Below are positions 38,099-50,061 of a stretch of 64,000 nt of DNA, piece by piece. Within the stretch, counting starts at the first letter, position 1. Each line of letters begins with the position of its first letter. Below the pieces are notes generated by a model. The model was not told the DNA's origin, did no database searches, and saw only the letters and a program-made list of their open reading frames with translations. The stretch is from Eubacterium sp. (GTDB lineage: Bacteria; Bacillota; Clostridia; Lachnospirales; Lachnospiraceae), in the NCBI GenBank assembly GCA_017477505.1, contig JAFUVQ010000009.1:1-64000 (forward strand). The letters run 5' to 3'. The position numbers and the translations under genes are program-made.

Positions 38099-41000
38099 TC
38101 ACTGTTTTACATAGTAGCGGAATGATGGATCAAGTTTCTTCTCAAAATTCATCACAGGAAGAGGTTTATCAAACAGGAATCCCTGTGCGAACTCACAATT
38201 ATTGGAGCGAAGCAGCTCAACCTGTTTTTCAGTCTCAACGCCTTCTACAATACATTCAAGTCCCAGATCTCTTGCCATGGATATAACATGTCTGAACATG
38301 ATATCAGCGGCTTTGTTCGTATCTTCCCCATCGGCAGGAAGAAAACTCCTGTCAACCTTCAGAACATTCCATGGCATATCTCTTATAAGATTCAGTGATG
38401 AGTATCCGACACCGAAATCATCCACTGAAGTATAGATACCGGTTTTCTGGAGACTGTTAACAATTCTCTTCAGATCACTGAACTCCACATCTGTAGTGGT
38501 TTCTGTAAGCTCTACTTCTATAAACTCGTGTGGAATCTCATATCTGTCAACTATCTTTATTATAGTTTCAATAAGATTAATATTGAGCATATGCTTACGG
38601 GAGAAATTAACTGATATACGGACAACTTTTCTGCCCATATCTATCCATCTTCTTATATCCCTGCATACATGGTCAAGCATATAAAAATCCAACTGACATA
38701 TATCATCCGTCTCTTCAAGCATAGGAATGAAATCAGCAGGCGAAACGACCTGTCCATCATGTATCCACCTGCAGAGCGCCTCAGCGCCTGCTATCTCACC
38801 GTTATTGATGTTTACCTTCGGCTGATAATAAACGATAAATTCTTCATTTCTGAAGGCTTCCGGGAAAAGCTGCTGAACACGCATACTCTTCGCCTTACTC
38901 TCATCAAGAGTATCGTCGTAGAAAACCATTCTCTCCCTGCCGCCGCTCTGGGCAACATGATAAGCAGTATTGATCCTCTCCATGATATCACTTGGATCTT
39001 TCAGTATGAAAACATCAGGAATGCAGTAAATCCCTGCACTGGTTGAAATATTTACAGACTTTCCGTTATGTAAATCGTAGACTATCGGTGCCTCCGCAAG
39101 AAAATTAACTATCCTTCCCAGCTGTTCCCCTCCGCATATTGCAACAAAATTATCTCCACCGAGACGGCATATGGTACCTCTGTCACCTATCATCCTCTGG
39201 AGGGTCTCATAATGATTCCGGAGAGTAACATCCCCTACTTTCCTTCCAAGTTCCTGATTGACCAGGGTAAAATGTCTTAGATTGTAACGGAATGCCACTT
39301 TGCCGCCAAGGCGGTTAGCATTTTCCATTATATATTTGAAGAAGCTGCGGAAATTCTCAAATCCGCTATTATCATGAAATGTAAGTTCTTCAACTGCATC
39401 TCTCAGCCTGTTTCTGGTAAGATAGCTGAGTGTCATACGCATCAGGAGTTCTACCCTTGTGTATTCTATAGTAGAAAGCGGCTGTTCATCCTCCGCCATA
39501 TATACCGAGATAGTTCCTATGGACATGACACTGGTTACAGATCTGAGATACATAACTCTCTTATCCTTCTTGCCGGAATCATAACAGCACAGAGTCTCTC
39601 CTGCACCCATAGCCTCTTCTTTAGGATTCTTATAGAGTCTGGCTACACCTTTACTCAGTCTGAAACTTACAGTTATCTCTGCTATGATACTTTCAATGAG
39701 CTTGTAATCAAGATGCTCCATATCCGTCATTGCAGAAACAAGTCTTTCGAAAAGACGATAATAATTAATGGTATCCTTATCAATCAGCTCGTAATCCTTT
39801 TCATACCCGTCATTTATATGTTTCATCCTCCGCTTATTGTCATACATGGCGGTGTCTGCACGTTCAAATACATCCTGTACAATATTATCTATAGAAGGAT
39901 TAAAATCCGACATACCTACTGAAAGGGTAACCTTATTTTCTTTATGATGTTCCGAATTTAAATGATCAAATCTTCCAAGTATTACATTTCTGTCTTCAAA
40001 ATCTTCACCGGTAAGGATTATAGCAAACTCATCACCTCCCACACGGAAGATGTCACTGTTTTTGTATAATGTGCGGAGCATCTCTCCCGCTTCTTTTATG
40101 TATTCATCACCGGCACTATGCCCCTTCGTATCATTTATGATCTTGAGACCGTTGATATCACAGATTACTATAGCAAACTGCTTATTGGTTTCTTCCTCAA
40201 TATCCTTATTGATGATCATCTCAACCTGAGCATAGTTTCTCTTATTCTTAAGTCCGGTGAGTTCGTCATTATTTGCCACATCCAGCGCGGAGTCAAGAAT
40301 ATCCTCAAGCTTCTCTTCCATACGCTTGGATGTATCAATATTTGCAACTGCTATGATAATACGTCTGGAATCCTCCTCAGGAAGAACAGCAAAGAGTGTC
40401 ACATACTGAGGCCGGCCATCAAGGAGCAGTCTGTAATTAAGAATAGCCTTACCGCTATCTTTAAGACTTTCAAGAAGATGTTCTTTCTGCATGGCATAAG
40501 CCATCATAGGATAATCATCTTTGTATATATCATTCTTCATATTCTTCTGGGTATCAGAGAAGAAATCCTTGCCTTTACTGCCAATGTCAAGCTTGGAATA
40601 CTTATCACTGGTACTGAATTCCAGATATTCATTTGTATCAATATCAACCAGATAGATAACCTCATATCTTCTGGCAAGTGCCATAGCTATATCTCCGAAT
40701 CGCCTGGATTCATCCTCCATGGACTTCTCCCTGACCATCTGGGAATCGACATTCAAAACACCCATAAGTATATGATTCTCATCATTTCCCGGATGAACGA
40801 TAAACATATTTACATATTGGAATTTACTGCCCAGAAGCTGTCTGTAGGTGTAAGACAGTGAGCTCTTTTGGGAAAGGTTTTTGATAAGATTCTTCTTCTC
40901 AATCTCTCTAAGAAGCCAGCCGGCATCATCCTGATGAACATATCTTCCAACATCCTTAAAGGCCGATTTAAAGAAATCGTCACCTTTTTTTGTTGTGCCG

Positions 41001-41146
41001 AGCTTTTCATATTCAGAACTTGCACTGTACTGAATATAATTATTTGTAACCATGTCTATATAGTAGATAACCTCATAGCGACTTGCAAGTGCACCCGCAA
41101 TATAGCTATACATATCAATATCATTATCACCCAATCTATCCGCCAT
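38099..41146 (-). CDS. PAS-PAS-GGDEF-GGDEF-EAL cyclic-di-GMP protein
   Basis: A large soluble regulator (1015 aa from the ATG at 41146, chosen for its GGGGG site; the frame opens at 41167). Two related PAS-like sensors repeat the pattern ASRYEVIYYIDMVTNNYIQY / ARRYEVIYLVDIDTNEYLEF. The first GGDEF domain is intact (FRVGGDEFAI). After a GAF-like middle region comes a second, altered cyclase domain (CRLGGDNFVAI). The C-terminal EAL domain has its catalytic residues: AGAEALCRW, NFS, ELTET, DDFGVGYSSL, KVDRSF and EGVET. It may both make and degrade cyclic-di-GMP, with one half regulating the other. No membrane segment. Confidence 0.92.
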   Translation of the reverse strand: MADRLGDNDIDMYSYIAGALASRYEVIYYIDMVTNNYIQYSASSEYEKLGTTKKGDDFFKSAFKDVGRYVHQDDAGWLLREIEKKNLIKNLSQKSSLSYTYRQLLGSKFQYVNMFIVHPGNDENHILMGVLNVDSQMVREKSMEDESRRFGDIAMALARRYEVIYLVDIDTNEYLEFSTSDKYSKLDIGSKGKDFFSDTQKNMKNDIYKDDYPMMAYAMQKEHLLESLKDSGKAILNYRLLLDGRPQYVTLFAVLPEEDSRRIIIAVANIDTSKRMEEKLEDILDSALDVANNDELTGLKNKRNYAQVEMIINKDIEEETNKQFAIVICDINGLKIINDTKGHSAGDEYIKEAGEMLRTLYKNSDIFRVGGDEFAIILTGEDFEDRNVILGRFDHLNSEHHKENKVTLSVGMSDFNPSIDNIVQDVFERADTAMYDNKRRMKHINDGYEKDYELIDKDTINYYRLFERLVSAMTDMEHLDYKLIESIIAEITVSFRLSKGVARLYKNPKEEAMGAGETLCCYDSGKKDKRVMYLRSVTSVMSIGTISVYMAEDEQPLSTIEYTRVELLMRMTLSYLTRNRLRDAVEELTFHDNSGFENFRSFFKYIMENANRLGGKVAFRYNLRHFTLVNQELGRKVGDVTLRNHYETLQRMIGDRGTICRLGGDNFVAICGGEQLGRIVNFLAEAPIVYDLHNGKSVNISTSAGIYCIPDVFILKDPSDIMERINTAYHVAQSGGRERMVFYDDTLDESKAKSMRVQQLFPEAFRNEEFIVYYQPKVNINNGEIAGAEALCRWIHDGQVVSPADFIPMLEETDDICQLDFYMLDHVCRDIRRWIDMGRKVVRISVNFSRKHMLNINLIETIIKIVDRYEIPHEFIEVELTETTTDVEFSDLKRIVNSLQKTGIYTSVDDFGVGYSSLNLIRDMPWNVLKVDRSFLPADGEDTNKAADIMFRHVISMARDLGLECIVEGVETEKQVELLRSNNCEFAQGFLFDKPLPVMNFEKKLDPSFRYYVKQ

Positions 41147-41234
41147 AGTTTTTCCCCCGTTTGTCATAAGTCAGACACATTTATTATACCACCTAAATGC
41201 ATATATTGCATTATTTTTTAAGCTTTATATTTTC

Positions 41235-41263
41235 TTGTAAAAACTGCTTTTTTTTGGTATAGT
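41235..41263 (+). promoter_or_regulatory. candidate promoter of the LacI-EAL gene
   Basis: TTGTAA (41235-41240), a 17-bp spacer and TATAGT (41258-41263), 25 bp before the ATG with AGGAGG in between. Confidence 0.55.
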
Positions 41264-41288
41264 TGTAATATTCAGGAGGGTGTAACGT

Positions 41289-44200
41289 ATGGGGGATAAA
41301 TCACGTTATAAGGGCAAGTCAAACAGAAGGATTGCCCTCCTAACTGCACAGGCTGACGAAACCTATCAGACAGAGTTTATAAGAGGGGTGATGAAAACCG
41401 CCTTTTCCTACGGATATGATGTCTGTGTATTTTCTATGTTCATCAAGTACCAGAACAACAAAGACAGGGAAAAAGGCGAGTCTAATATCTATAATCTCAT
41501 CAACTATGACATGTTTGATGCAGTCATTATCCATTCGGATATTATACAGACACCGGGTATCGTAGAAGAAATTGAGGAAAAGGTCCACAAAGTATTTGGC
41601 GGACCTGTTGTTTGCGTTGATAAAGACAGCAAATATTTCTATAGTTTCTGGACAGACGGATATCCTGCTGTTTATGCTACAATTTCCCATTTTATTGAAG
41701 TACACGGATATAAAGATATAGCATACCTTACCGGCAGACGTAATCATATACACTCCAGGATGCGTCTTGAAGCCTATAAGGATGCCATGAAAGATCACGG
41801 TCTCTCCGTCAGATCCGACAGGATATACTACGGGGATTTCTGGTATTACAGCGGTTCAAGCTGTGCCGAGGATATACTCCGAAGCGGTGATATTCCTGAA
41901 GCTATAGGATGTGCAAATGATCCTATGGCCATAGGTTTTGCAGTCAATATGACTAAACACGGCAAAAGCATTCCTCATGATATTGCCATAGCAGGCTATG
42001 GTACCTCCGAAGAAGGTCAGTCCAGTCCTAAATCTCTCACTTCCACCTATATTCCGGGTGAATACTACGGTTCATTTGCCGTTAAAGCTCTTATCAGACA
42101 AATGAACGGCGAAAAGCCTGAAAAACCTGAACCGGATGCCACACTCTACATAGGCGAAAGCTGTGGCTGTGAAGTGCAATACAGCATGGAGCGAAAAACC
42201 AGAGAGTCCTGGATCACCAAGGATTCTGATGAAAGCTTTGAATCAGTTCATAATTATATGATGGAGAATATGCTCCTTGCAAATAATCTTGATGAGTTCT
42301 TCAGAACAGTTTATGACTCAATTTTCTACATTCATGGAATAAAAAAGATGGAAATCTGTCTTGATCCAAACTGGATGAATGCCGAAACATTGACCGGCAA
42401 TCCATTTTATACAAAGGGATATCCGGAAGTCATGGTAAATGTACTTTCGTATGATGCCGACAACCCCTCTCTTTGCATGATCGATTCCAAAAGATTATTC
42501 CGTACATCCGACTTACTTCCATACTCAAATGATGAGTCATGCAGGGGTTGGTTTTTCCTTCCACTCTTCTATGAAAATAAGTCCTATGGATATGTCATGC
42601 TCAGTTTTGGCACCGAACCAAGGTCTTACGAAAGTGTTGCACGTCTCTGGATGTATGCTGTTTCAAGGGGACTTGAGTCTTTCAGGCGTCATCTTCTTCT
42701 GAAATTCTATTCCGACAAACTGGAACAGATTGCAGCAAACAAGTACGAAGGCAGCGAAACAAAATCCGTTCGTGTTAATAACAATAACCTTTCTGAAGAT
42801 GAACAGAAAGAACTGACAGAGGTTGAAAAGATACTTGACGGTAATCTTCTAAAATATCATTTCCAGCCAATAGTTAATGCTGTCAATGGCGATATTTTCT
42901 CATACGAAGCTCTTATGCGCTCCAACTCCGACATTCCGATTCCGCCTCTCAGCATAATCAAATATGCCTATATGCTGGGGAGACTTAATGACATTGAAAC
43001 AGCCACATTTAAAAATGTACTTAAGATAGTCGGAGAAAGAGACGATATCTTTGATACAAGAAAAGTATTCATAAACAGTATTCCGGGCTGCAAACTGAGT
43101 ACTTCGGACAATGAGTACATCAAAGAACAGCTGTTTCTCAAGGCCGGCAGTGTTGTTGTCGAACTGACAGAAGAAGCCGAACTTTCGGATGAGGATCTCG
43201 ACAGGATCAAGACCAATTACAGAAGCATGGGCATCGACCTTGCAGTCGACGATTACGGCACCGGATATTCAAATGTCAGCAATCTTCTGAGATACATGCC
43301 TGAATATGTAAAGATAGACCGTTCTCTCCTTACTGAGATTCAAAACAGTGATCAGAAACAGCATTTTGTTCGTGAGATCATAGACTTCTGCCATGCCAAC
43401 AATATCAAAGCACTGGCGGAGGGTGTTGAGACCAGAGATGAACTTGCTACGGTTATAAGACTGGGAGCAGACCTTATTCAGGGTTATTATATTGCCCATC
43501 CTGCAGAAAATATCATTACCAGTATAGATGCAAATGTAAGGATGGAGATCAATCGTTTCCATAAAGAACGTGAAGCCGGCACTACTGATGAAGTATTTAT
43601 CGCCGGAAAATCCAGCAGGATTTCTCTTAACAGCATACTTAAAGATAACAAAAAGACTATCATCATAGGTGATTCCGGTTCTACATTCCGTGACATAACC
43701 ATCACCGGTACTCCTAACCATGATACAGGTATTCACCTTGAAATTCTTGAGGGCTATGACGGTCATATTACCCTTGAAAATGTATGTCTTTCAAATGTTA
43801 AGAATCGTCCGTGTATCACCATTGCAGATAATGCAAAGGTGCTGATACGTCTTGAAGGCGAGAATCATTTCAAAGGAAACGGAATCATGGTTCCGAAATC
43901 ATCTTCGCTTACAGTTGAAGGTGATGGTAATCTCAAGATAACTGTTTCCGGCTCTGACGGTTTCGGAATAGGAAATTCAAAGAAAGAAGCCCACGGTACT
44001 ATAGACTTCTATCAGGATGGGGAGATATATATTGAAGCCAACGGACAGATCATGTCCGGTATCGGGTCAGGTCTCGGTGGCATTATAAGGATCAATAAAG
44101 GCAAATATATCATCCGTGTCAGCGGTGAAAAAGGTGTTGCCATAGGTTCCTTCGATTCCTATCATCCTCTTAAAATTCATGATTGTGATATTCTTATAAA

Positions 44201-44630
44201 TAATAATGTTTATGAAGGCGTCTGCATCGGAAGCTTTGACGGCAACTCTGAAGTTGAGATATGGCGTTCACTTGTCAGATGTGAAGGCGGCGGCGGACGT
44301 ACTGCCGTTATCGGAAGCCTTACAGGCAGCAAAGCCTCTGTTACCATGCATGATATGTCCTTCCATGTCTCTGTTCAATCAGATTATTCGACAGCTGTAG
44401 GAAGTCTGTATGGTGCCACTGACTTTACAGTAGAATCTGCTGCCATTACATATATCGGTCACGGTATGAATGCTTATGTTTACGGTGGAAATTCCAATAC
44501 AAAGGTACGTATCGTTAATACCGATGTTAATATTGAGATGGATAATTCCAGGAATCTCATTACTCTTGCACCTGATGAAAATATTGAAGTGGTGAACGGT
44601 CGCAATAAAACTATTTTCATTGAGAAATAA
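41289..44630 (+). CDS. LacI-type sensor fused to EAL phosphodiesterase and a C-terminal beta-helix
   Basis: A 1113-aa protein without signal peptide or membrane helix. Residues about 12-295 are a LacI/GalR-type ligand-binding domain (RRIALLTAQADETYQTEFIRG, GGPVVCVDKD, DIAIAGYGTS) but no DNA-binding helix-turn-helix precedes it. Residues 310-490 form a linker domain of unclear type. An EAL domain follows (about 515-760) with YEALMRS, FINSIPG, VELTEEAE, DDYGTGYSN, KIDRSL and AEGVET, so cyclic-di-GMP hydrolysis is expected. From about 775 to the end, rungs such as GIGSGLGG, AIGSFDS, CIGSFDG and VIGSLTG indicate a parallel beta-helix of the kind usually seen in surface proteins. It is divergent from the GGDEF-EAL gene; AGGAGG precedes the ATG. 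Confidence 0.87.
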   Translation: MGDKSRYKGKSNRRIALLTAQADETYQTEFIRGVMKTAFSYGYDVCVFSMFIKYQNNKDREKGESNIYNLINYDMFDAVIIHSDIIQTPGIVEEIEEKVHKVFGGPVVCVDKDSKYFYSFWTDGYPAVYATISHFIEVHGYKDIAYLTGRRNHIHSRMRLEAYKDAMKDHGLSVRSDRIYYGDFWYYSGSSCAEDILRSGDIPEAIGCANDPMAIGFAVNMTKHGKSIPHDIAIAGYGTSEEGQSSPKSLTSTYIPGEYYGSFAVKALIRQMNGEKPEKPEPDATLYIGESCGCEVQYSMERKTRESWITKDSDESFESVHNYMMENMLLANNLDEFFRTVYDSIFYIHGIKKMEICLDPNWMNAETLTGNPFYTKGYPEVMVNVLSYDADNPSLCMIDSKRLFRTSDLLPYSNDESCRGWFFLPLFYENKSYGYVMLSFGTEPRSYESVARLWMYAVSRGLESFRRHLLLKFYSDKLEQIAANKYEGSETKSVRVNNNNLSEDEQKELTEVEKILDGNLLKYHFQPIVNAVNGDIFSYEALMRSNSDIPIPPLSIIKYAYMLGRLNDIETATFKNVLKIVGERDDIFDTRKVFINSIPGCKLSTSDNEYIKEQLFLKAGSVVVELTEEAELSDEDLDRIKTNYRSMGIDLAVDDYGTGYSNVSNLLRYMPEYVKIDRSLLTEIQNSDQKQHFVREIIDFCHANNIKALAEGVETRDELATVIRLGADLIQGYYIAHPAENIITSIDANVRMEINRFHKEREAGTTDEVFIAGKSSRISLNSILKDNKKTIIIGDSGSTFRDITITGTPNHDTGIHLEILEGYDGHITLENVCLSNVKNRPCITIADNAKVLIRLEGENHFKGNGIMVPKSSSLTVEGDGNLKITVSGSDGFGIGNSKKEAHGTIDFYQDGEIYIEANGQIMSGIGSGLGGIIRINKGKYIIRVSGEKGVAIGSFDSYHPLKIHDCDILINNNVYEGVCIGSFDGNSEVEIWRSLVRCEGGGGRTAVIGSLTGSKASVTMHDMSFHVSVQSDYSTAVGSLYGATDFTVESAAITYIGHGMNAYVYGGNSNTKVRIVNTDVNIEMDNSRNLITLAPDENIEVVNGRNKTIFIEK

Positions 44631-45720: not shown

Positions 45721-46014
45721 TTAAATAAAAAACACGTCTGTGCGAGAGACATGTACACTCTCCATCAGACGTGTTTTTGCGCTTGTTACTATGGTTGGAA
45801 TCCCATTTAGCTTAGGCAGAACCTCCTCTCCCGAAAGTCCGGGAAGCATGAGGTCCAAAAGAACCAGATTCGGTTTTTCCTTTTCGAGAAACATCAACGC
45901 TTCTGTTCCTGAATACGCACGGAGGACGCTGTACTTTTCCATTTCCAGCGCCTCCTGAAGCATATTTCCGATATTCACTTCATCTTCTATTATCATTATC
46001 TTATGTTCAGACAT
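45721..46014 (-). pseudogene. truncated response regulator (receiver fragment)
   Basis: The 97-aa product begins MSEHKIMIIEDEVNIGNML and has the phosphoacceptor aspartate in LVLLDLMLPGLSGEE, but ends after PTIVTSAKTR, losing the last part of the receiver and the whole DNA-binding domain of an OmpR-type regulator. Its final residues (LMESVHVSRTDVFFI) are encoded by a terminator-type hairpin. AGGAG precedes the ATG and it follows apbE by 22 bp, so it was presumably the start of a two-component pair whose remainder was deleted. Confidence 0.8.
45728..45778. terminator. bidirectional terminator hairpin at the end of the truncated regulator
   Basis: AAAAACACGTCTG and CAGACGTGTTTTT are perfect 13-bp inverted arms, with an inner GAGAG/CTCTC pairing. 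It lies between two convergent gene relics and inside the reading frame of the truncated response regulator. Confidence 0.8.
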
Positions 46015-47430: not shown

Positions 47431-47620
47431 GTGCCTGTCACTTAACAGTTTGTACATACTTATACTGTGGCCCGGTGACGGCCCGGTGACAGGCACTTAA
47501 CAGTTTGTTCACTCATACACCGCGGTGTTATGCGGGGTTCCGCCACCGCGGTGACAGGCACTTAATAGTTTGTTCATATTTAGTGTGGTGCTGGCGGTGA
47601 CAGGCACTTAACAGTTTGTT
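47431..47620. repeat. four-core repeat element A
   Basis: Four copies of the 11-bp core GTGCCTGTCAC or its complement start at 47431, 47486, 47551 and 47597 (spacing 55, 65, 46). The first is inverted relative to the other three, and each is followed by TTAACAGTTTGTT or a close variant. An ACCGCGG-type palindrome lies before the third core. The last unit supplies the stop codon and last codons of the SLH gene at 47608. Confidence 0.9.
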
Positions 47621-50061
47621 AAATTATGGTAGCGCATTATAAGTATTGCGCATTGCAGTCTGCCGGCGTTTCTGTTCGGGTAGATATATGTGAGGCCGTC
47701 TTTTGTGACTCCTGTCATTATGCCGTCTCCTATGATCCAACTGAGGCCCGCTTCTGTGTTTTCTCTGACTGTATCGTAGTCTGCGAAGCTGCTGAGGTCT
47801 GCTGTTGCTGATGTTTCGTAGCCGGCGATATCTGCATAACGCTGCAGCATTATTGCTATCTGTGCGCGGGTTATGTTTTTGGCAGGCTTAAATGTTCCAT
47901 TTTCAAATCCGCTTATTATTCCTATGCCGGCAGCCCACTCTACTGCCTCGTATCCTGTATCACCTTCTGTTATATCTGAAAAATGTATTGTTTCTGTTTC
48001 AATTCCTTTTTCTAAAACTCCTTCTGCCTCTGCAAGTTTATATAGCATTATCGCAAACTGTGCTCTGGTCACGCTGTTCGACGGCTTGAACTTAACCTGT
48101 CCGTTTTCGTCAGGCTTTGTAACTCCGCTGACTACTCCCAGGTCATAAGCCTGTTTCAGTAGATCGGCTCCGGTTGAATCTTTCTCCACGTCGCTGAAAG
48201 GCCAGATCTCATCATCCGTATCATCGTCTTCATTTCCATAATCATTTGCAACAGAAGTAATCTTAGGAATAGTCTGTGTTTTTGTTGTGCCGCAGACAGT
48301 GCATGTGTATGTCATAACACCGGTGCTTTCAGCCGTGGCCGGAACTGTTACTGCAGATGTCCATGTATGGCTGTTACAGCCGCCGGTTCCACAGTCTGAA
48401 ACTGCATTGTTTGTAAATGAACAGGATTTATCTGCCGGTATATAGAAAAGATAATTCACATTTTTAGGTGATGTCGCACTGTAAATTACATTTCCATTTC
48501 CATCTTTAACATATATAGGCGAACCTTTCTGATATGTTGATGTCGAGTAAATGTAACTTGAGTTTGTACTTACTTCATTATGGATGTAACCGTCAACACC
48601 TTTGGTGCCACCTGCAAATACATTTGCATTATTTATAGTAATTGTCCCGTCAAAATCCAGCGGTGAATTGTCTCCGCCTGCTCTCATGCCCCACACTTCC
48701 ACATTTCCGCCGGAAATGTTTATATTTCCATTTGCATCAATACCATCACCCTCGACATTTATGTAAATATTACCTCCATAGATATTTATGTGATAATTTC
48801 CGCCACCTCCGGGTGTAAAACCTCCGCCTCCCGGGCCAGGTCTGAAGCTGTTTCCGCCACCCTGCATAGGATCGGTTCCGCTGGAACTTCCGCCTGCAGA
48901 GTTGATGCCATCATCATTTCCAACTATGATCATAGTTCCTGAATATGTATTGACAGTGCCGCCCTCAAGTCCTTCGTAGCAATACTTGATATCGATGTAA
49001 GGATCCATATCAAGACCGCCTTCCGACCCGATGTTCAAAGTTGTATCAGCATGCGCACCGTCATCACCGGTATAAATTGTAAATGTACCGCCTGTTATAT
49101 CCGCATACGCGTCAGAATGTATTGCATCATCAGGTGTATTGATTGTAAATGTACCGCCTGATACAGTAAGTCTGCTTTCAATACCCTCAAGATTTCCGGC
49201 AGATGCCTTGAGACCTTTGCAGCTCATGGTATCGCTACTAAACTGCGTATCGTTGTAACCATTCATGGAAATGATATTAAAACTTCCATTTGTAATATTA
49301 AGATCCCTGGCAGCTGAAATACCGTCGCCCTGTGCATTTATATCAATAGAACCGCCATTGATATAGATAGCGCCTGCACTCTCAGTATCATCAGCATCAG
49401 GATCAGACTTCATGCCATCCCCGGATGATACAATATCAATATTTCCAGCATTAACAGTAAGCGTACCGTCGCAGGCAATGCCCGTATTGGCAGCATTTAC
49501 ATTTAAATGAGCCCCGTTGACATTAATACCCGACGTTGCTCCGCCTTTGATACCATTCTTACACGAGGACGCATCAATATTAAGCGTACCGCTGCCGCTT
49601 ACGGTAAGATTCGAAGCGCTTTTTACCTTAATTGCAGCCCCCTCAAAAGCGTCAGCAATTTCCTCATCCGAACTGTTTTCATTTTCAGGATTTTCCGCAC
49701 TTATAAGAGTACAGTCACCCTGGACCAGAAGCAACAGACTCGAACCCTTCTTTACCACAACAGGAGCGGTAAGCTCCGACTTAAGATAGAAATCACACAT
49801 GTACAGAGTGACCGAAATTCCTTTGGCAATTTCAATATTACCTTCGCTGCAGCTTCCGGTCACAGTATAAGTACCGCTCTCCTTAATCGTAAGAGTTGTA
49901 CCGTTTACAGAAAAACCACCCTCTTCGGAAAAAGAAATACCGGAATCCGAAAAAGAGATAACAACCCCTTCAGCCGCATAACATCTGCTGCCAAACAGCC
50001 CCACAACAAGCGCCGCAGAAAACAAAAACAAGATCAACAGTTTCAATCCTCTACCAAACAT
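47608..50061 (-). CDS. S-layer-anchored carbohydrate-binding-type beta-helix protein with SLH domains
   Basis: The 817-aa exported protein starts with a signal peptide (LKLLILFLFSAALVVGLFGSRCYA). Residues about 40-500 repeat short beta-rungs (INGGSIDINAQGDGISA, GGTFTIYTGDDGAHAD, INISGGNVEVWG) with aspartate/glycine turns, as in the Cthe_2159-type cellulose/pectin-binding beta-helix. A glycine-rich loop (RPGPGGGGFTPGGGG) interrupts it. A Cys-containing segment (CTVCGTTKTQTI) follows, then three SLH repeats from about 615 (IWPFSDVEKDS, VTRAQFAIMLYKLAEAEG, ITRAQIAIMLQRYADIAG, RLQCAILIMRYHNL) that bind cell-wall polymers. Its leader hides the ribosome site in a hairpin, and its stop lies inside repeat element A. 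Confidence 0.88.
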   Translation of the reverse strand: MFGRGLKLLILFLFSAALVVGLFGSRCYAAEGVVISFSDSGISFSEEGGFSVNGTTLTIKESGTYTVTGSCSEGNIEIAKGISVTLYMCDFYLKSELTAPVVVKKGSSLLLLVQGDCTLISAENPENENSSDEEIADAFEGAAIKVKSASNLTVSGSGTLNIDASSCKNGIKGGATSGINVNGAHLNVNAANTGIACDGTLTVNAGNIDIVSSGDGMKSDPDADDTESAGAIYINGGSIDINAQGDGISAARDLNITNGSFNIISMNGYNDTQFSSDTMSCKGLKASAGNLEGIESRLTVSGGTFTINTPDDAIHSDAYADITGGTFTIYTGDDGAHADTTLNIGSEGGLDMDPYIDIKYCYEGLEGGTVNTYSGTMIIVGNDDGINSAGGSSSGTDPMQGGGNSFRPGPGGGGFTPGGGGNYHINIYGGNIYINVEGDGIDANGNINISGGNVEVWGMRAGGDNSPLDFDGTITINNANVFAGGTKGVDGYIHNEVSTNSSYIYSTSTYQKGSPIYVKDGNGNVIYSATSPKNVNYLFYIPADKSCSFTNNAVSDCGTGGCNSHTWTSAVTVPATAESTGVMTYTCTVCGTTKTQTIPKITSVANDYGNEDDDTDDEIWPFSDVEKDSTGADLLKQAYDLGVVSGVTKPDENGQVKFKPSNSVTRAQFAIMLYKLAEAEGVLEKGIETETIHFSDITEGDTGYEAVEWAAGIGIISGFENGTFKPAKNITRAQIAIMLQRYADIAGYETSATADLSSFADYDTVRENTEAGLSWIIGDGIMTGVTKDGLTYIYPNRNAGRLQCAILIMRYHNLTNC

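Follow-up and report, generated by a model that had tools for sequence, protein, structure and literature searches.

Domain organization of the protein

The gene at positions 41289 to 44630 of the window (the whole stretch of DNA that was analysed, 64,000 nucleotides of Eubacterium sp. contig JAFUVQ010000009.1) encodes a protein in which a ligand-binding domain (LBD) of the LacI/periplasmic-binding type is followed by a domain designated MID, by an EAL domain predicted to act on cyclic di-GMP (c-di-GMP), and by a C-terminal beta-helix (Table 1). A first-pass annotation, made from the sequence alone, had proposed a protein of three parts, sensor, phosphodiesterase, and beta-helix; all three were present, but a fourth, the MID domain of about 195 amino acids, had been missed.

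Table 1. Positions in the window of the gene under study, its parts, and nearby features.
Feature	Positions	Strand	Basis or remark
Whole gene	41289..44630	+	1113 aa plus stop; frame uninterrupted; homologues full-length
Ribosome binding site AGGAGG	41274..41279	+	9 nt upstream of the ATG; read from the sequence
Promoter-like site, TTGTAA-17-TATAGT with TG before the -10	41235..41263	+	Inside the 121-bp gap common with the divergent gene
LBD, LacI/periplasmic-binding type, without helix-turn-helix (HTH), residues 11-298	41319..42182	+	Pfam Peripla_BP_3/Peripla_BP_1; CcpA and RbsR matches; LacI/RbsR alignment
MID domain, residues 299-494	42183..42770	+	Also present in LacI-type GGDEF proteins
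EAL phosphodiesterase domain (predicted), residues 510-745	42816..43523	+	Pfam; BlrP1 alignment; conservation
Right-handed parallel beta-helix, residues 762-1113	43572..44627	+	AlphaFold2 model; structure matches; remote kinship with secreted beta-helix proteins
Divergent neighbour, 1022 aa, two GGDEF stretches and EAL	38099..41167	-	Separated from the gene by the 121-bp intergenic region
Surface protein, 817 aa, Cthe_2159 beta-helix and SLH domains	47608..50061	-	Separate gene on the opposite strand; extracellular, same fold class

Pfam matched the sensor region to Peripla_BP_3 (residues 134-292, E 1.6e-20; 74.3 bits vs. a cut-off of 26.5) and to Peripla_BP_1 (residues 14-232, E 3.6e-15). No LacI HTH was detected by Pfam, and the first ~60 residues of E. 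coli LacI and RbsR had no counterpart in the alignment, the sensor domain starting at the point where the HTH and hinge of both regulators end. Judged by these alignments, the protein carries a LacI-type sensor domain only and is not a LacI/GalR transcription factor, in agreement with the first-pass annotation, which had described the LBD of a LacI regulator without its DNA-binding part. For the MID domain, Pfam gave one sub-threshold match (E 0.052) and nothing significant, and a 36-sequence profile found no PDB sequence match up to E 10; proteins of ~640-670 amino acids, LacI-type GGDEF proteins among them, matched residues ~12-482, which comprise LBD and MID.

The EAL domain was recognized by Pfam at residues 516-738 (E 2.3e-50; 171.6 bits vs. 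a cut-off of 31.3). Nine positions were checked, which we take to be the metal- and substrate-binding active site (E540, R544, N596, E625, D654, D655, K675, E711, and Q731), and all of them lined up with BlrP1 (PDB 3gfx), a protein that differs from the present one in lacking a beta-helix and in its sensor, a BLUF domain; in the four other EAL alignments listed, the N596 region was misaligned or outside coverage. K675 was found in 91 of 92 EAL-helix proteins and the other eight residues in all 92, a set from which one member of each pair of duplicate sequences (L077/L007 and L089/L122) had been removed and in which the near-copies L036 and L080 were counted as two, as they were among the loci described below. 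A degenerate EAL domain was thus ruled out, the earlier description of a complete domain held, and with its active site complete the domain should hydrolyse c-di-GMP.

AlphaFold2 modelled the tail, taken alone, as the beta-helix that had been predicted (mean pLDDT 93.0, pTM 0.90). The C-terminal 354 amino acids matched no Pfam family at a maximum E of 10, with HMMER filters dropping most matches above 0.1, and for NCBIfam no E value fell below 0.12. The highest 19-residue Kyte-Doolittle mean was 1.10 in this protein and did not exceed 1.59 in 49 aligned proteins, as compared to 2.42 in the SLH protein, and no signal-peptide- or transmembrane-like stretch was found in the 49 proteins by hydropathy, used here without a dedicated predictor. 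An exported protein was ruled out by this lack of a hydrophobic leader; the absence of a signal peptide had been noted before, and the values suggest that the EAL-helix protein is cytoplasmic, with nothing to suggest export.

Distribution of the family

The genome contains three full-length copies of the gene (identity 100, 53, and 47% along the entire length). When named bacterial genomes were scanned, 94 related loci were obtained, 80 of which were kept, and the order LBD-MID-EAL-helix was found in 55 of these, including Eubacterium ruminantium ATCC 17233 (L069) and the 3.86-Mb contig of Lachnospiraceae bacterium AC2029 (L035); in six of the 55 the contig ended at or within the helix, and in another member (L063) the frame ended ~300 bases before its tblastn match did. 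The remaining loci corresponded to three LBD-MID-GGDEF-EAL-helix proteins, 17 complete LBD-MID-GGDEF-EAL proteins without helix, two of the GGDEF-EAL type cut inside the EAL domain, and three cut before the helix. GGDEF was deduced in these loci from an insert of 175-192 residues and directly found in part of them, and where short flanks lacked the 5' ends the front parts are known from the reported open-frame length only. The search for the same architecture, proposed with the first-pass annotation, was therefore positive, and the three genome copies together with the 55 loci in the same order ruled out a separate helix gene joined by assembly error. A ruminant or the ruminant gut was named in 29 of the 80 record titles (hand count without baseline; one was reindeer).

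With a helix profile, matches were obtained in 26 of 397 genomes of the family, 19 of 391 of the class, and 3 of 398 of the phylum, with none outside the class among the latter 398; the three draws overlap and all include the window's own genome. Seven of the 19 in the class draw were weak matches only (six genomes at E 6e-14 or worse, and one at E 5e-4 beside a strong match). From the 34 matches of the family draw, 30 became loci, one more was the third genome copy (L002), and three were not read.

A phage origin was rejected, as the 102 phage records with a match covered parts only, none of them reaching 80% of the query, and viral_contigs gave none. Five 'Bacteriophage sp.' records from human faeces encode a LacI-type plus MID front part and are possibly bacterial contigs filed as phage.

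Association of the helix with the EAL domain

The EAL domain directly preceded the helix in 106 of the 109 open reading frames (ORFs) with a helix match in a single-sequence search, the exceptions (L028 and the overlapping pair L126/L139) representing two different exported-type proteins. The same arrangement occurred in 29 of 30 family-draw loci, L028 being both the exception and the weakest match (E 3.3e-6). Among the 29 class-draw loci found with the profile, an EAL link was present in all 17 at E <= 2.6e-50, and the 12 at E >= 6e-14 had no EAL domain within the stretch examined; ten of the 29 gave no single-sequence match, six of these having a helix by profile and four nothing in the ORF scan. 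The parts in front of the EAL domain varied, and consisted of LBD-MID, LBD-MID-GGDEF, GGDEF (L019), a GNAT acetyltransferase (L018), or ~90 residues (L009, L011, L013, and L115). Since the helix is tied to the EAL domain behind such different front parts (GGDEF, GNAT, short leaders), it appears to serve the EAL domain as an accessory module and not to be paired with the sugar sensor. The helix match started a median of 20 residues after the end of the EAL match (range 16-94, 106 proteins). EAL and helix distances were correlated over 92 proteins (rho 0.88; no higher than 0.21 in any of 200 permutations). Within a set of 51 A-type proteins the distance correlation was 0.80 for EAL-helix, 0.70 for LBD-helix, and 0.60 for EAL-LBD. 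The GNAT domain of L018 (1501-3864, minus strand; Pfam E 6.9e-11), joined directly to EAL and helix, is an unusual partner for a c-di-GMP enzyme.

In an EAL tree, which was unrooted and did not include the window's own row, the 17 helix-less proteins clustered together (99/97) within a larger group (100/98) of 32 proteins, the remaining 15 of which were helix-bearing, which suggests that the helix was lost in the 17. Such a probable loss in one group of relatives, along with the kinship to exported beta-helices described below, would be expected if the helix were the fused remnant of a surface protein, without a present role; yet a full-length helix was found in all three genome copies and was kept in the 55 family loci, its residues are conserved, and it tracks EAL divergence, so that a decayed passenger appears very improbable.

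Relatives of the helix and constraints on its function

Among the 50 structures listed in the structure comparison, Cthe_2159 (PDB 4peu) showed the lowest root-mean-square deviation from the tail model, over a shorter stretch. As regards bactofilins, the tail has no Pfam match and the 50 entries listed exclude nothing. The SLH protein encoded nearby, for which a fold related to that of the tail had been proposed, showed a sequence match to 4peu (E 3.7e-16), and when the helix profile was aligned with this protein by hhalign the probability was 69% (E 4.4e-5); hmmsearch with the same profile gave no match up to E 10, so that the proposal was supported through 4peu and hhalign but not by direct profile search. 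The Cthe_2159 family (PF14262) has a right-handed beta-helix similar to that modelled for the EAL-linked tail but consists of exported or surface proteins, whereas the EAL-linked helix has no PF14262 match and no leader, lies C-terminal to an EAL domain, and contains more Lys and Arg (9.2% over 72 EAL-linked helices, against 3.9% for the SLH protein and 3.6% for secreted relatives, the last value coming from 771 residues of three proteins). Secreted GIGGG repeat proteins (Beta_helix_3, PF18889) resemble the initial ~150 residues of the helix in sequence pattern, scoring 37-49 bits per stretch once bias corrections of 17-23 bits had been applied, with no match for reversed copies. These secreted proteins differ in their glycine content (21.9% vs. 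13.5% in EAL-linked helices) and in having no EAL domain in the stretches examined; the tail itself gave no PF18889 match by Pfam, and its remote relative L127 did. By these comparisons the helix is akin to beta-helices of exported proteins, a resemblance already remarked on in the first-pass annotation, and yet it is found in a protein without a leader.

Binding of cellulose and polygalacturonate by Cthe_2159 proteins is reported in PMC6712302. It is possible, though rather unlikely, that the protein is an intracellular polysaccharide sensor whose helix binds a cytoplasmic polymer, such as storage glycogen or nascent surface polysaccharide, and which together with the sugar sensor couples the carbohydrate stock to c-di-GMP. 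In the structure comparison the fold of the tail was common to lyases, adhesins, and tailspikes, and carbohydrate binding can therefore not be deduced from the fold alone; the family pattern, with the helix tied to the EAL domain, points away from the intracellular polysaccharide or oligosaccharide recognition module suggested at first, which we keep as one of three readings for the helix. We regard as doubtful, too, a new class of c-di-GMP accessory domain in which the cytoplasmic helix after EAL, recruited from surface carbohydrate-binding beta-helices, would sense an intracellular polymer (glycogen or nascent surface polysaccharide), the enzyme then reading a small sugar and a polymer at opposite ends.

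Conservation was 0.74 in the EAL domain, 0.71 in the sensor, 0.66 in the first half of the helix, and 0.51 in its second half. This weak conservation of the second half would be expected if the EAL-proximal part alone were constrained, as in a pure scaffold, that is, an inert oligomerisation or spacing module which orders EAL dimers or polymers and has no ligand; the regular, rigid solenoid modelled with high confidence is also consistent with it. On the other hand, the near-invariant polar or aromatic positions of the first half in 49 proteins (R777, R801, D802, E830, N831, N859, F907, Q909, and D910) perhaps exceed the needs of a scaffold, although they may be structural, and we consider an inert helix unlikely.

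The PMC full-text matches listed included no paper on EAL proteins that end in a beta-helix, a search that left most subscription papers outside coverage. In the review consulted, SBP_bac_3 is the only member of the periplasmic-binding protein (PBP) clan that has been studied, and the word beta-helix is absent from the main text. As an accessory domain of EAL proteins, the beta-helix would be new.

The sensor pocket and its putative ligand

D111, R159, and D211 aligned with D149, R197, and D274 of E. coli LacI, and H153/H155 with S191/S193, LacI residues that we assume to contact the inducer. None of D84, Q87, H153, H155, R159, W185, and Y186 varied among the 72 EAL-type sequences (52 A, 3 B, and 17 E). 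Six GGDEF-type sequences had the same residue at R159 (6), W185 (5), N210 (6), and D211 (6) but differed at Q87, H153, and H155 (same in none) and at D84 and Y186 (same in one each), a comparison weakened by four of the six being close kin (neighbours of A-type genes). Because the pocket is near-invariant and the sugar-contact positions of LacI are kept, the EAL-type sensors probably have one common ligand, a sugar or sugar-like molecule, other than the ligand of these GGDEF types.

Close relatives retain their neighbours, L002 and L067 each having a LacI-HTH regulator directly upstream of the gene. L002, the copy of the studied gene beside a LacI regulator, is also adjoined by a galactokinase. 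A LacI-type GGDEF protein (L143, 972-3936) is followed after 19 bp by a gene of the NAD-dependent epimerase family, which reads as a UDP-glucose 4-epimerase. The galactokinase of L002 and the epimerase-family gene after L143 give a hint, and only a hint, of galactose metabolism.

The end of the sensor reads SCGC (residues 291-294, 42159-42170) in EAL-type as well as in GGDEF-type proteins (L142 and L143). C292 and C294 were kept at >=90% in 49 rows, and LacI and RbsR have no SCGC; a redox or metal site is possible.

c-di-GMP signalling in the genome

The genome gave 36 GGDEF matches (35 over cut-off) and 17 EAL matches, and no match to PilZ. Four c-di-GMP-I riboswitches scored over cut-off (L148-L151, on contigs C45, C60, and C64), with no Rfam riboswitch inside the window. 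Downstream of riboswitches were found a protein with a type IV pilin N-terminal methylation motif (E 5.2e-7), another of 1743 amino acids or more with DUF285 and Big_2 (its SLH-like end was seen by eye and not found by Pfam in the part examined), a protein of at least 648 amino acids with Lipase_3, BspA-type repeats, and a leader recognized by eye, and a PP2C phosphatase with a protein kinase after it. The messenger thus appears to be read at the RNA level, among other possible ways, and to control surface functions.

The protein shares its sensor class and type of output with c-di-GMP proteins of the PBP clan, in which Peripla_BP_3/LacI-type domains are joined to GGDEF or EAL. Two proteins of the same genome (L142 and L143; 640 and 642 amino acids) have a front part of this kind and terminate in GGDEF, and therefore related sensors would drive both the making and the breaking of c-di-GMP; MID being common to LacI-type GGDEF proteins, synthesis and breakdown would depend on the same sensor type. 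Unlike the EAL-helix protein, the six GGDEF-ending LacI-type proteins examined had no beta-helix match. At L035, L038, L074, and L081 the next gene after that of the EAL-helix protein, on the opposite strand, encodes a LacI-type GGDEF protein (Pfam), which places opposite outputs side by side.

Proposed mode of action

Our preferred reading, to which we give a probability of about one half, is that of a soluble, one-component, sugar-gated c-di-GMP phosphodiesterase whose beta-helix, recruited as a module linked to EAL, would serve in regulation or targeting. A sugar-like metabolite would bind the LacI-type domain, in which the sugar-contact columns were observed, and closure of the LBD would be relayed to the EAL domain and set its activity; it is plausible, as had been proposed, that ligand binding directly sets hydrolysis, and the path would have to run through the MID domain. 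The EAL domain, with the complete active site observed, would then hydrolyse c-di-GMP, and the cytoplasmic helix would most likely hold or tune it via a partner or a cell polymer. With c-di-GMP read by at least the four c-di-GMP-I riboswitches, the presence of the ligand would lead the enzyme to alter surface functions.

Several points weigh against this interpretation. Plain vertical inheritance would equally give the correlation between EAL and helix distances, and the 17 complete LBD-MID-GGDEF-EAL proteins without helix indicate that the helix is dispensable for the EAL domain. Invariance across 72 helices was seen at ten columns, eight with Gly and two with Ile, i.e., fold-forming residues, and neither Cys nor acidic residues separate the cytoplasmic helices (2.0 and 12.3%) from the SLH protein (1.6 and 12.5%). 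The pocket columns come from sequence and not from a structure, and the neighbouring gene families do not name the ligand: its identification from neighbours failed, as no family occurred in more than nine of the 78 direct neighbours scanned (of 86 listed, the eight left out including near-copies), the largest group being nine with GGDEF.

The sensors of c-di-GMP enzymes have mostly been catalogued without ligands. In a recurring family with a near-invariant, sugar-type pocket, a ligand established for one domain could apply to every member. The helix would be a case of an exported-protein fold working in the cytoplasm and, if it binds a polymer, it would tie the carbohydrate stock directly to a messenger that controls surface functions.

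Immediate surroundings of the gene

The gene and its divergent 1022-aa neighbour may be jointly regulated. Promoter-like sites were found 18 times in the region, as compared to 13.9 expected in shuffles, which makes the candidate site in the shared gap weak evidence. The divergent protein (38099-41167, minus strand) showed by eye two similar N-terminal halves. On the minus strand at 45721-46014, a 97-aa response-regulator receiver without output domain was encoded, which may be a fragment or a single-domain regulator.

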